This document shows, piece after piece, positions 19,550 to 22,150 of a DNA stretch of 64,000 nt; within the stretch, counting starts at the first letter, position 1, and each line of letters opens with the position of its first letter. Source of the stretch: Shimia isoporae (GTDB lineage Bacteria; Pseudomonadota; Alphaproteobacteria; Rhodobacterales; Rhodobacteraceae); NCBI RefSeq assembly GCF_004346865.1, contig NZ_SMGR01000001.1, forward strand, positions 1,736,001-1,800,000, given 5' to 3'. The notes beneath the pieces are model-generated. The model was given only the letters and a program-made list of their open reading frames with translations. It was not told the origin of the DNA and ran no database searches. A program made the translations under genes and the position numbers.

Positions 19550-19873
19550 ATGCAACTGCCTCCAAAAGTAACCGAACGTGCCTTTGAACGTCTTGCCGAA
19601 ATCGGAGCATCCGACAATGGTCAGGCCCTTCGTGTTGCGGTCGAAGGCGGCGGATGCTCGGGTTTCCAGTATGAAATCAAACTGGACACTCCAAAGGACG
19701 ACGACCTCGTGCTCGAAGGCGCCGGCGAAAAGGTGCTGGTCGACAGCATCTCCCTTCCCTTCCTTGCAGATGCAGTAATCGACTTTACGGAAGAGCTCAT
19801 CGGCGCCCGGTTTGTAATCAACAACCCGAACGCGACCAGCTCCTGCGGCTGCGGCACCAGCTTCTCTATGTAA
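19550..19873 (+). CDS. erpA: Iron-sulfur cluster insertion protein (ErpA/IscA, A-type)
   Basis: 107 aa from MQLPPKVTERAFERLAE; AGGTGA precedes this ATG, while an in-frame TTG at 19526 is less likely. The three cluster-binding cysteines of A-type carriers are present: Cys in 'VEGGGCSGFQYE' and the CGC pair in 'ATSSCGCGTSFSM' at the C-terminus. It delivers Fe-S clusters to client enzymes. Its 3' end overlaps the convergent DMT transporter gene by 8 nt. Confidence 0.92.
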   Translation: MQLPPKVTERAFERLAEIGASDNGQALRVAVEGGGCSGFQYEIKLDTPKDDDLVLEGAGEKVLVDSISLPFLADAVIDFTEELIGARFVINNPNATSSCGCGTSFSM

Positions 19874-20747
19874 CAGCCATTTGCCGGGTACGCGGAGCAA
19901 TCCGCTGCCACACAAGAACAAAGCTCGCCGCGATCATAATCGCAGCTCCGGCGAACACTTGTGGTACGGGCGTCTCGTCAAAGAAATGCCCCCCCAACCA
20001 GACTGCCCAGAGAAATTGCAAACTCATGAACATTGTCGCCACATGTACGGGCAACAGCCTGAGCGCGGCCATACACAACCAGCGTGCGGCAAACAGGGCC
20101 ACCGAATAAGCCACAACAAGCGCAATGTCCGCCCAACTCATGGGTTGCCAGACAAATGGCAAAGCCAAACACATCACGATCCCGAGAGACAAATTGGGAT
20201 AGAACACCTGCCCCAACGCCCCCTCCCCCCGGTTTGACAAATATCGCGCCAAAACAAGAGACAACGAGCCTATTACTGCAGCCGCAAGAGCAATAACGTG
20301 TCCTGAACCGACGTCTGACAGACCGTTTGGAAACAGAACGAGTAAGCCGACACAGCCAAGCCCCAACGCCGCCCAGGTTCCCGATTTCACAGGTTCACCC
20401 AGCACTTTGCCAGACAAAGCCGCCGAAAGGATTGGCATCAAAGCAATGAACAAGAAAACTTCAGCCATCGGCAGCAACCTGAATGAAAGGAAAAACGCCA
20501 ACGAACCCGCGATACCCAACGCGCATCGCGCCGCTGTAACCCCGACATAGTCCGTCTTCGGTACTACGCCAGCTGGGCGAGACATCAAAAAGCAGAAACC
20601 TCCGACCAAAAGGCCGGATAAACCAAATAGCTGCGGAGCTGCATAACCTGTAGCGACATGTTTGGTGATCGCGTCTGCCGCAGAAATCGCTGCCGAGTAC
20701 GCAACGATCAAAACGACACCCCAAAGGGTCTCTCTACGCCCGTTCAT
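19866..20747 (-). CDS. DMT superfamily transporter, EamA-type
   Basis: About 293 aa with ten predicted TM helices in two EamA repeats (first around 'LFGLSGLLVGGFCFLM', second around 'ALAAAVIGSLSLVLARYLS'). EamA proteins export metabolites, amino acids or small compounds. The ATG at 20747 overlaps the preceding gene's TGA by one base (TGATG), so translation is coupled; an ATG at 20762 is the alternative. Coupling to the unknown 363-aa gene and the FSSGL-repeat peptide suggests it may export a product of that unit, but this is inference. Confidence 0.82.
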   Translation of the reverse strand: MNGRRETLWGVVLIVAYSAAISAADAITKHVATGYAAPQLFGLSGLLVGGFCFLMSRPAGVVPKTDYVGVTAARCALGIAGSLAFFLSFRLLPMAEVFLFIALMPILSAALSGKVLGEPVKSGTWAALGLGCVGLLVLFPNGLSDVGSGHVIALAAAVIGSLSLVLARYLSNRGEGALGQVFYPNLSLGIVMCLALPFVWQPMSWADIALVVAYSVALFAARWLCMAALRLLPVHVATMFMSLQFLWAVWLGGHFFDETPVPQVFAGAAIMIAASFVLVWQRIAPRTRQMAVT

Positions 20748-21838
20748 CACGCCCACTCCCAACGCAAGTCAACTCGCGCGAAATGCGAGAAGAATTCGCC
20801 AAACCGCGGCGAAGAGGCCTCTGCCAGAGCGAGCTTATCCTTGGCGCCATCAGACACTTTCGACACAATGGCCGGTCGCATGTCGCGCCAGTTCGCTGTG
20901 CGTGCGCTCGCCATGTTGTAGATTGTTTCTGAAAGCTCGCGCAGCGGCGCGCACATGGGTTTGGGTCTCTTAAATGTCGTCGCGCCCCCCATCGGCGGCA
21001 AGCGGTCAATTCCCTCCGCCCCCTCGACGATCAAACGCGCCCATTGGCACATCAAAAACTCATGATAGTCATCGGCAGCGACCCCCATAGAGTTAGGTTC
21101 GACGGAAAACCGATCCGTGTGACGCCTCAACCATTGTCGCCAAATTTCAGGTGGACGCATCCGCGCAAAGCGCATCGCCACGCAAACCTCTGACAACAGG
21201 TCGGCATTCTGTTCGACAAAGGCCCATAGACCCAAAAATTCGAGAGATTTGCGAGCACCTCGGTCGAGATCCGGATCAACACGTCCATAATCTGACAAAT
21301 AGAAAATCGCATGCGTAAGTTCGTAAGCGATCTTTTTATTTGGCAAAGCAAACTGCGCAGACAAGGCCATAAAGCGCCGCACACGATCAAGCAATGCGGC
21401 ATTCCTCTTTTGCCGGACGCGCCTGCGACGGGCAAACAGCCGGAGTGCCTCAAGCCTTTGCAAATCCGACAATTCTGCCTCAGCAAGTCCCTTTTGACGC
21501 GCCCAGTCGACGAGGCGCTCTCCCTTTTCCGAGACCCCGCTCAGGTCTTCAAAGTCCAGACAGATTGACAAAATAAAGCGGTAGTACTGCGGAAAAAACT
21601 CGATCCGGGACTCTACGGTCTCGTAAAAAGCCTCATACGCTGGCGCCACATCAGAGGTTTCCGGCAGCGATGTGTGCACGACGTTGAGAAACTCGGCGTT
21701 CTCCTTGAGCCAAAAGACATCATTGATCCCGCGACGTTCGTTAGAAAATGTATTCGCAAGCCGCTCAGTCGCGGAGGACGTGCGCGCGAGATACGCGGCA
21801 CGCCACTTCGGAGCAGCCAGAGTGATGACGTTGGACAT
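20747..21838 (-). CDS. Unknown soluble helical protein downstream of the FSSGL-repeat peptide
   Basis: 363 aa from MSNVITLAAPKW; a run of G (AAGGGGGG) serves as ribosome site. I recognise no named domain. It appears all-alpha and soluble, with no signal peptide or TM helix. Visible landmarks: 'GINDVFWLKENAEFLNV' near residue 40, 'EFFPQYYRFILSICLDFEDL' near residue 90, a very basic helix 'FARRRRVRQKRNAALLDRVRR' near residue 140 and 'KKIAYELTHAIFYLSDYGR' near residue 180. It lies 54 nt after the repeat-peptide gene and is coupled to the DMT transporter. It could modify, bind or chaperone the peptide, or be unrelated to it. Confidence 0.7.
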   Translation of the reverse strand: MSNVITLAAPKWRAAYLARTSSATERLANTFSNERRGINDVFWLKENAEFLNVVHTSLPETSDVAPAYEAFYETVESRIEFFPQYYRFILSICLDFEDLSGVSEKGERLVDWARQKGLAEAELSDLQRLEALRLFARRRRVRQKRNAALLDRVRRFMALSAQFALPNKKIAYELTHAIFYLSDYGRVDPDLDRGARKSLEFLGLWAFVEQNADLLSEVCVAMRFARMRPPEIWRQWLRRHTDRFSVEPNSMGVAADDYHEFLMCQWARLIVEGAEGIDRLPPMGGATTFKRPKPMCAPLRELSETIYNMASARTANWRDMRPAIVSKVSDGAKDKLALAEASSPRFGEFFSHFARVDLRWEWA

Positions 21839-21892
21839 GGTCCCCCCCTTGAAACTGCAGCCCATCCGGCTGCTCCAGTTCTCGAGCCTCGA

Positions 21893-22150
21893 TCAGAGGC
21901 CGGAGGAGAACATCTCGACGCCATCGCCTTCTACTATGCGAAGGCCAGAGGCTTTTGGAGAAAGGCCGCTTGAAAACAGCTGTACCAATCCGCTGGAAAA
22001 CAGCTCAGCGCCATCGCCCGAGAACGCATCGGTGCTGCGGGCTTCTAGACCCGACGAGAACAGAGCAACGCCCTCGCCAACGAACGGATCTGAAGGCGCC
22101 TCGGAGGTTAAGAAGTCATTAATTGTTTCGGTGGTTTTGTAAGCAAACAT
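21893..22150 (-). CDS. 85-aa peptide with repeated [L/M]FSSGL motifs (candidate precursor peptide)
   Basis: 85 aa from MFAYKTTETINDFL, with GGGAGAG upstream. Residues 1-23 look like a leader with no export signal. Then three 12-residue units share the form xG[E/D]G[V/A]x[L/M]FSSGL (residues 24-35, 44-55, 74-85), and an extra LFSSGL stands at 59-64. The last unit ends exactly at the stop codon. This repeat layout resembles multi-core precursors of modified peptides, though no recognisable modifying enzyme is adjacent. Ser/Gly/Phe/Leu-rich units with acidic spacers could equally be a protein-binding repeat. It is the first gene of a unit with the 363-aa protein and the DMT transporter. Confidence 0.7.
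   Translation of the reverse strand: MFAYKTTETINDFLTSEAPSDPFVGEGVALFSSGLEARSTDAFSGDGAELFSSGLVQLFSSGLSPKASGLRIVEGDGVEMFSSGL

Follow-up and report, generated by a model that had tools for sequence, protein, structure and literature searches.

A repeat-peptide gene beside a DUF6902 gene in Shimia isoporae: a candidate multi-core RiPP-like system of Roseobacter-type bacteria

What might be the function of a small gene that encodes the same pentapeptide several times over? This question is raised by a window of 64,000 nucleotides from Shimia isoporae (the whole stretch of DNA analysed here; GCF_004346865.1, contig NZ_SMGR01000001.1, positions 1,736,001 to 1,800,000), in which an 85-amino-acid peptide with repeated FSSGL motifs is encoded ahead of a 363-amino-acid protein and an EamA transporter. 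We find that a small repeat-peptide gene beside the gene of a probable peptide-modifying enzyme, the DUF6902 protein, is carried by many marine Roseobacter-type bacteria. Our preferred reading, to which we give a probability of about one half, is a multi-core locus resembling those of ribosomally synthesised and post-translationally modified peptides (RiPPs): DUF6902 would modify each core, most likely by L-to-D epimerisation, cellular peptidases would release the product and EamA would export it.

The peptide gene (21893..22150, minus strand) starts with ATG and encodes a precursor-like product with a leader of about 24 residues (MFAYKTTETINDFLTSEAPSDPFV) and four [LM]FSSGL cores. Three units of the form G[ED]G[VA]x[LM]FSSGL (VGEGVALFSSGL, SGDGAELFSSGL and EGDGVEMFSSGL) are accompanied by an extra VQLFSSGL, and EGDGVEMFSSGL runs to the TGA stop. 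The cores lie, all on the minus strand, at 22046..22063 (LFSSGL, residues 30-35, preceded by GEGVA), 21986..22003 (LFSSGL, residues 50-55, preceded by GDGAE), 21962..21979 (LFSSGL, residues 58-63, the short unit) and 21896..21913 (MFSSGL, residues 80-85, up to the stop codon); a GGGAG was seen by eye just 5' of the frame. Of the window's 703 frames of 50 amino acids or more, this one alone holds a pentapeptide at least three times, and shuffling the peptide 20,000 times never gave three copies of one pentapeptide, which excludes chance as the source of the repeat. A DNA tandem repeat is excluded as well: each of the four copies has a codon spelling of its own, and Tandem Repeats Finder detected no tandem repeat at the gene. 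The FSSGL repetition is thus maintained at the protein level, and the synonymous codon pattern argues in favour of translation of the peptide. A search of the window's genome at E-values up to 1 gave one match for the peptide, and the precursors that were tested had no Pfam or NCBIfam family match.

On the same strand follow the DUF6902 gene (20747..21838, 363 amino acids, a candidate peptide epimerase) and the gene of an EamA/drug-metabolite transporter (19866..20747, 293 amino acids; PF00892, E 1.8e-12), the EamA ATG and the DUF6902 TGA overlapping by one base, the common A of TGATG. A preliminary description of this DNA had read the peptide, with its three spaced units and its last repeat at the stop, and the order and coupling of the three genes in the same way, and the open reading frames (ORFs) and coordinates bear it out. 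The 363-residue protein, which it could not assign, matches DUF6902 (PF21843) over the entire profile (1-351 of 351; E 1.7e-130, 435.5 bits for a cut-off of 27). Rfam, Pfam, NCBIfam and PDB-sequence searches with the precursors, the enzyme or the region returned only DUF6902, DUF6895 and EamA, and a scan for promoters and terminators gave signals no more frequent than in shuffles. The three genes were scanned with Pfam and NCBIfam and six flanking genes with Pfam; these scans gave no ATP-grasp, LanM, YcaO or radical S-adenosylmethionine (SAM) match.

The array and DUF6902 are linked across genomes. Of 295 genomes sampled from the window's family, 81 carry DUF6902, as do 6 of 398 sampled phylum-wide, all six within that family. 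One of the 81 (G139) holds a fragment at a contig end, leaving 80 loci, and in 78 of them a repeat peptide of 2-20 units stands close upstream on the same strand. This count joins an automatic table (at least two units in 76/80, rows L072 and L073 being spurious) to a reading by eye, which added L030, where the array is partly masked, L072, L078 and L082. At L085 the array stops about 0.5 kb short of the DUF6902 frame. The repeat peptide was also present at eight of nine named loci (Shimia, Marinibacterium, Lentibacter, Roseovarius, Tritonibacter and others), the ninth (L040) having a broken DUF6902 frame. EamA followed DUF6902 in 61 of the 79 loci with enough sequence, which excludes the exporter as an obligatory partner. 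The preliminary description had proposed a unit that produces a peptide and includes a dedicated partner, to be doubted if homologues of that partner never adjoined such peptides or if the repeat count were constant. Both observations went its way, since the pairing is near-universal among these loci and the number of units varies; as for the co-occurrence of all three genes that it expected, the peptide and DUF6902 do keep together and EamA is a frequent companion. Two further DUF6902 loci of the family lie outside the 80 (G613 and G646), and at the first of these (L098) an array of seven STSSF-type cores is followed by a DUF6902 gene split across two contigs. The seeming fusion of substrate and enzyme in a single open frame at L030 was rejected, a run of N between the two making it an artefact of unread sequence.

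Such linkage could in principle reflect no more than a fixed chromosomal spot passed on vertically. In the window, the island is bordered on the plus strand by two housekeeping genes that stand outside the system, a HesB/ErpA-type iron-sulphur biogenesis gene (PF01521, 19526..19873) and an xthA-like exonuclease/endonuclease gene (PF03372, 22481..23302), and the synteny is strong across the family loci, with xthA on one side in 72/80 and hesB/erpA on the other in 67/80 (some of the missed flanks being contig ends or short flanks). Against this, no array was found within about 1.5 kb of the best xthA-type match in 20 DUF6902-negative genomes, of which 15 had hesB there and only one EamA; a search of the same genomes for orphan arrays gave two weak, unconvincing matches, at a low sensitivity (the query was convincing in 2 of 4 positives, G000 and G009). 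Moreover, inheritance of the spot predicts no co-transfer outside the family, and this is contradicted in the Gammaproteobacteria: DUF6902 was found in three of four genomes of one order, arrays in two of these three (L123/L141 and L142; none in the flank of L143 that was read), and in one genome a peptide whose three units are GTELFGCYT-like is accompanied by DUF6902 and an EamA gene. A small upstream ORF is found at DUF6895 genes of other phyla too. A functionally empty co-occurrence is hence, in our view, highly improbable. Plasmids gave no match to the 85-residue peptide or the 363-residue protein. The one DUF6902-negative genome with EamA belongs to the window's genus (G210, L103) and retains the transporter between xthA and hesB, array and DUF6902 being missing.

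The arrays themselves are under selection for identical cores within a genome. Statistics were computed on those arrays, 66 of 80, in which one search pattern, itself restricting core positions 1-3, matched three or more units; these held 3-20 units (median 7, 465 in total), and some other loci had two. Identity of the five-residue core was 0.98 within vs 0.56 between precursors, 1.00 vs 0.36 at position 2 and 0.99 vs 0.35 at position 4, and the seven residues that follow the core were 0.59 identical within precursors. Codon differences within the core, counted over 992 pairs of diverged units, were 94% synonymous (2252 synonymous, 147 non-synonymous), and differences in the linker, the seven codons after the core, were 18.5% synonymous (1178 and 5187); core positions 4-5 alone, which escape the constraint of the pattern, gave 1046 synonymous and 31 non-synonymous differences. 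Altogether, the identity of cores within arrays and the synonymous codon differences indicate that each array is selected for many copies of one core and that this core changes from one lineage to the next. Among the core types are FSSGS, FTSWS, FTSGL, FSSGL, FTSCA, FITSC, FTTSM and FTNWC, mostly F-x-S-x-x, rich in Ser and Thr and some with Cys; G[DE]xx[EQ][LM] usually precedes them and the linkers vary. On a tree of the enzymes (65 rows, the incomplete L081 being dropped; mostly weak support), core position 4 required at least 17 changes and position 2 at least 20, values that none of 200 shuffles matched, so that both positions follow the tree. Other cores were also seen: a divergent array upstream of DUF6902 at L086 (G283) has cores of the ALSPSC[AG]V type instead of F-x-S-x-x, and two-unit precursors at L074 and L076 carry Met- and Cys-rich MMCCS and MMSCS cores.

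Identical motifs need not be excised, and the array could instead be an intracellular, disordered, multivalent protein, a scaffold or sponge whose motifs all bind one pocket of DUF6902 or of another partner. The leaders (median 24 amino acids, often starting M[TSN]A[LQ]xK, as in MTALRK- or MSAQLK-like starts) look unlike signal peptides by eye, residues extend beyond the last core in 26/66 arrays, the peptide is modelled as disordered and EamA is not obligatory, all of which suit a protein that stays whole inside the cell. A scaffold sits poorly with the other 40/66 arrays, where the last core is the C-terminal end at the stop, with cores that differ among relatives with closely placed enzymes on the tree, and with the conserved, enzyme-like polar residues of DUF6902. 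We consider it quite unlikely.

What then does the DUF6902 protein do? It also matches DUF6895 (PF21836) above the curated cut-off (E 1.8e-24), and the two families are related: a profile-profile comparison by hhalign, with profiles built from nine DUF6902 and eight DUF6895 proteins, gave a probability of 96.9 and E 1.5e-10 over residues 85-232. The motifs YxxxH, G, DxxxE and YH, invariant in 8/8 DUF6895 proteins, map to Y172, H176, G185, D213, E217, Y258 and H259, each kept in 84-87 of the 87 rows of a DUF6902 alignment (79 of the 80 family loci, without L081, and eight named loci, with possible overlap of species); the YH pair, which the hhalign block does not reach, was equated by motif and by a weak hidden Markov model alignment. 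An AlphaFold model of the protein, made with nine sequences, is nearly all helical (predicted local distance difference test (pLDDT) 83, predicted template modelling score 0.85). A DUF6895 epimerase is reported to act in lasso-peptide modification by the title of Shi et al. (ACS Catal 2026), as given in the reference list of PMC13352647. The 363-residue protein is therefore a probable maturase of the repeat peptide, because its family is kin to one with a reported peptide epimerase, and the view of the preliminary description that the unit was without a known maturase is not supported.

Kinship need not mean the same reaction, and a multi-core RiPP-like system could rely on a different DUF6902 activity, for instance one that alters the backbone or the side chains of the Phe/Ser/Thr/Cys core. 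Changes of reaction are common within enzyme families. The linkage and selection data fit such an activity equally well, DUF6902 and DUF6895 are separate Pfam families, and Ser/Thr-rich cores, some with Cys, would suit it. What makes us rate it as rather unlikely is that the candidate residues are common to both families and that epimerisation is the sole activity we found reported for the wider family (by the same reference title). Alternatively, DUF6902 could bind or process peptides, as a solenoid-like chaperone or a peptidase, and the product could be an unmodified linear pentapeptide signal, comparable to those cut from multi-copy pheromone precursors. One core per genome, switched between lineages, is the pattern expected of a lineage-specific signal, and many of the weak Foldseek matches of the model are helical peptide-binding solenoids, none of them significant. 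The kinship to a family with an epimerase reported by title speaks against an unmodified product, as do the absence of a protease family match in the system (Pfam, NCBIfam) and of a receptor-like gene in the flanks (six genes scanned); we hold this to be unlikely.

The kinship can be followed into other groups. All six plasmid proteins that were tested lie above the DUF6895 cut-off (three from Streptomyces and one each from Kitasatospora, Pseudalkalibacillus (Bacillota) and Gemmatirosa (Gemmatimonadota)). In all, DUF6902 or DUF6895 turned up in Pseudomonadota, Actinomycetota, Bacillota and Gemmatimonadota, four phyla. Among 13 DUF6895 loci above cut-off in other groups (L091, L092, L094, L100, L124-L126 and L128-L133; L101, L102 and L127 fell below it and were left out), seven were judged by eye to have a small ORF resembling a precursor immediately upstream (L091, L092, L094, L128, L129, L131 and L132); these ORFs combine a helix motif like that of a leader with an aromatic, core-like end, which is sometimes duplicated. 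Three of the upstream ORFs were tested and gave no Pfam or NCBIfam family above cut-off. The 138-residue ORF of L094 (G634; 925-1407, with DUF6895 at 1444-2685) has two DWTF[VI]SxNYVYKGS repeats after a leader-like GIINK motif and is possibly another precursor family. At L092 (G475, minus strand), a 143-residue ORF before DUF6895 has two core-like stretches, AELAGPWYIYKE and GELVGPWFVLKE. The DUF6895 proteins of L131 (6941-8674) and L132 (6755-8509), from Streptomyces and Kitasatospora plasmids, have a second, unassigned C-terminal half, and the small ORF beside them ends in GYVLAW[ED][RK]YVLVV.

Several observations weigh against epimerisation of exported cores. DUF6902 and DUF6895 are distant, with 17% identity across 145 aligned columns, and DUF6895 proteins score weakly with DUF6902 profiles, below Pfam's cut-off; the residues compared are those conserved in the families. 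Neither Foldseek nor a PDB-sequence search gave a significant PDB match to the fold of the 363-residue protein. The AlphaFold complex that the preliminary description had suggested as a check lends no support to docking: modelled as one chain with the enzyme, its stop being read through, the peptide is disordered (pLDDT about 25). Two DUF6902 loci, L073 and L089, have no array, and among the ten DUF6895 loci examined for an upstream ORF (all but L124-L126) it is absent from the sequence read at L130 and L100 and doubtful at L133. Core position 5 does not track the enzyme tree: it needs 22 changes, and 62 of 200 shuffles needed no more. Finally, EamA is missing in 18/79 loci, with hesB next in 14 of the 18, so that export is not tied to EamA.

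With these points counted, we still favour the epimerising multi-core system. A leader and a repeated core stand beside a candidate modifying enzyme, as is required of a RiPP locus, and the transporter would qualify as the exporter at the gene level, by its EamA domain and its linkage. We infer a path that runs from epimerisation at a site in the core, through release by proteases and export, to a signalling-type use of the core. The repeat peptide would be the precursor, with a short leader and 2-20 copies of one core, here FSSGL; DUF6902 would bind it and modify each core, most likely from L to D by acid/base chemistry through H176, E217 and H259, which are common to DUF6895. The D-residues would shield the cores as cellular peptidases digest the unmodified linkers, so that no dedicated protease gene would be needed, and EamA would export the freed peptide.

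A bolder form of this proposal, which we put forward tentatively and as doubtful, is a widespread chemical language of the Roseobacter group. Each lineage would make many copies of its own barcode pentapeptide (mostly F-x-S-x-x, as in FSSGL, FTSWS and FTSCA, but also FITSC and others) with a D-residue set by a helical epimerase family that dispenses with radical SAM chemistry; the D-residue would decide what survives housekeeping proteolysis, sparing the need for a protease gene, and whole arrays would switch barcode together. Should our main reading hold, a simple two- or three-gene peptide system with lineage-specific products would exist in the Roseobacter group, whose members are important marine bacteria. 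Because the core can be read from each array, the product sequence and a test of the enzyme are predictable per genome, including the eight named array-bearing strains. This conserved peptide system, probably of the multi-core RiPP kind, is apparently undescribed, a description of these arrays not having been found in searches of open-licence PMC papers.

How does the system compare with known ones? Yeast alpha-factor type pheromone precursors carry many identical short copies per precursor, of lineage-specific sequence, as these arrays do; here, in contrast, the host is bacterial, a DUF6902 gene adjoins, and neither a secretion signal (by eye) nor a dedicated protease was seen. Multi-core RiPP precursors, such as those of some graspetides, likewise have several cores per precursor beside one modifying enzyme, but the enzymes of the ATP-grasp, LanM, YcaO and radical SAM kinds were lacking from the genes scanned here, and the cores of each precursor are nearly identical. 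MslH, the lasso-peptide epimerase of MS-271, is a peptide epimerase with acid/base residues, a role that DUF6902 would share, and has a calcineurin-like fold with Ca(II), according to PMC10406935; the DUF6902 model is helical almost throughout, and Pfam gave no match of this kind for the protein. DUF6902 and DUF6895 would, if our reading is right, constitute another group of peptide epimerases, differing in fold from MslH. Compared with the lasso system of the DUF6895 epimerase, as far as the title of Shi et al. (listed in PMC13352647) describes it, DUF6902 is a separate Pfam family whose precursors have many short identical cores, and the cyclase and leader peptidase genes that mark a lasso-peptide cluster were found neither among the three genes nor among the six flanking genes scanned. 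The two are alike in profile homology, in their YxxxH, DxxxE and YH motifs and, at several DUF6895 loci, in the small precursor-like ORF that lies directly upstream of the enzyme gene.

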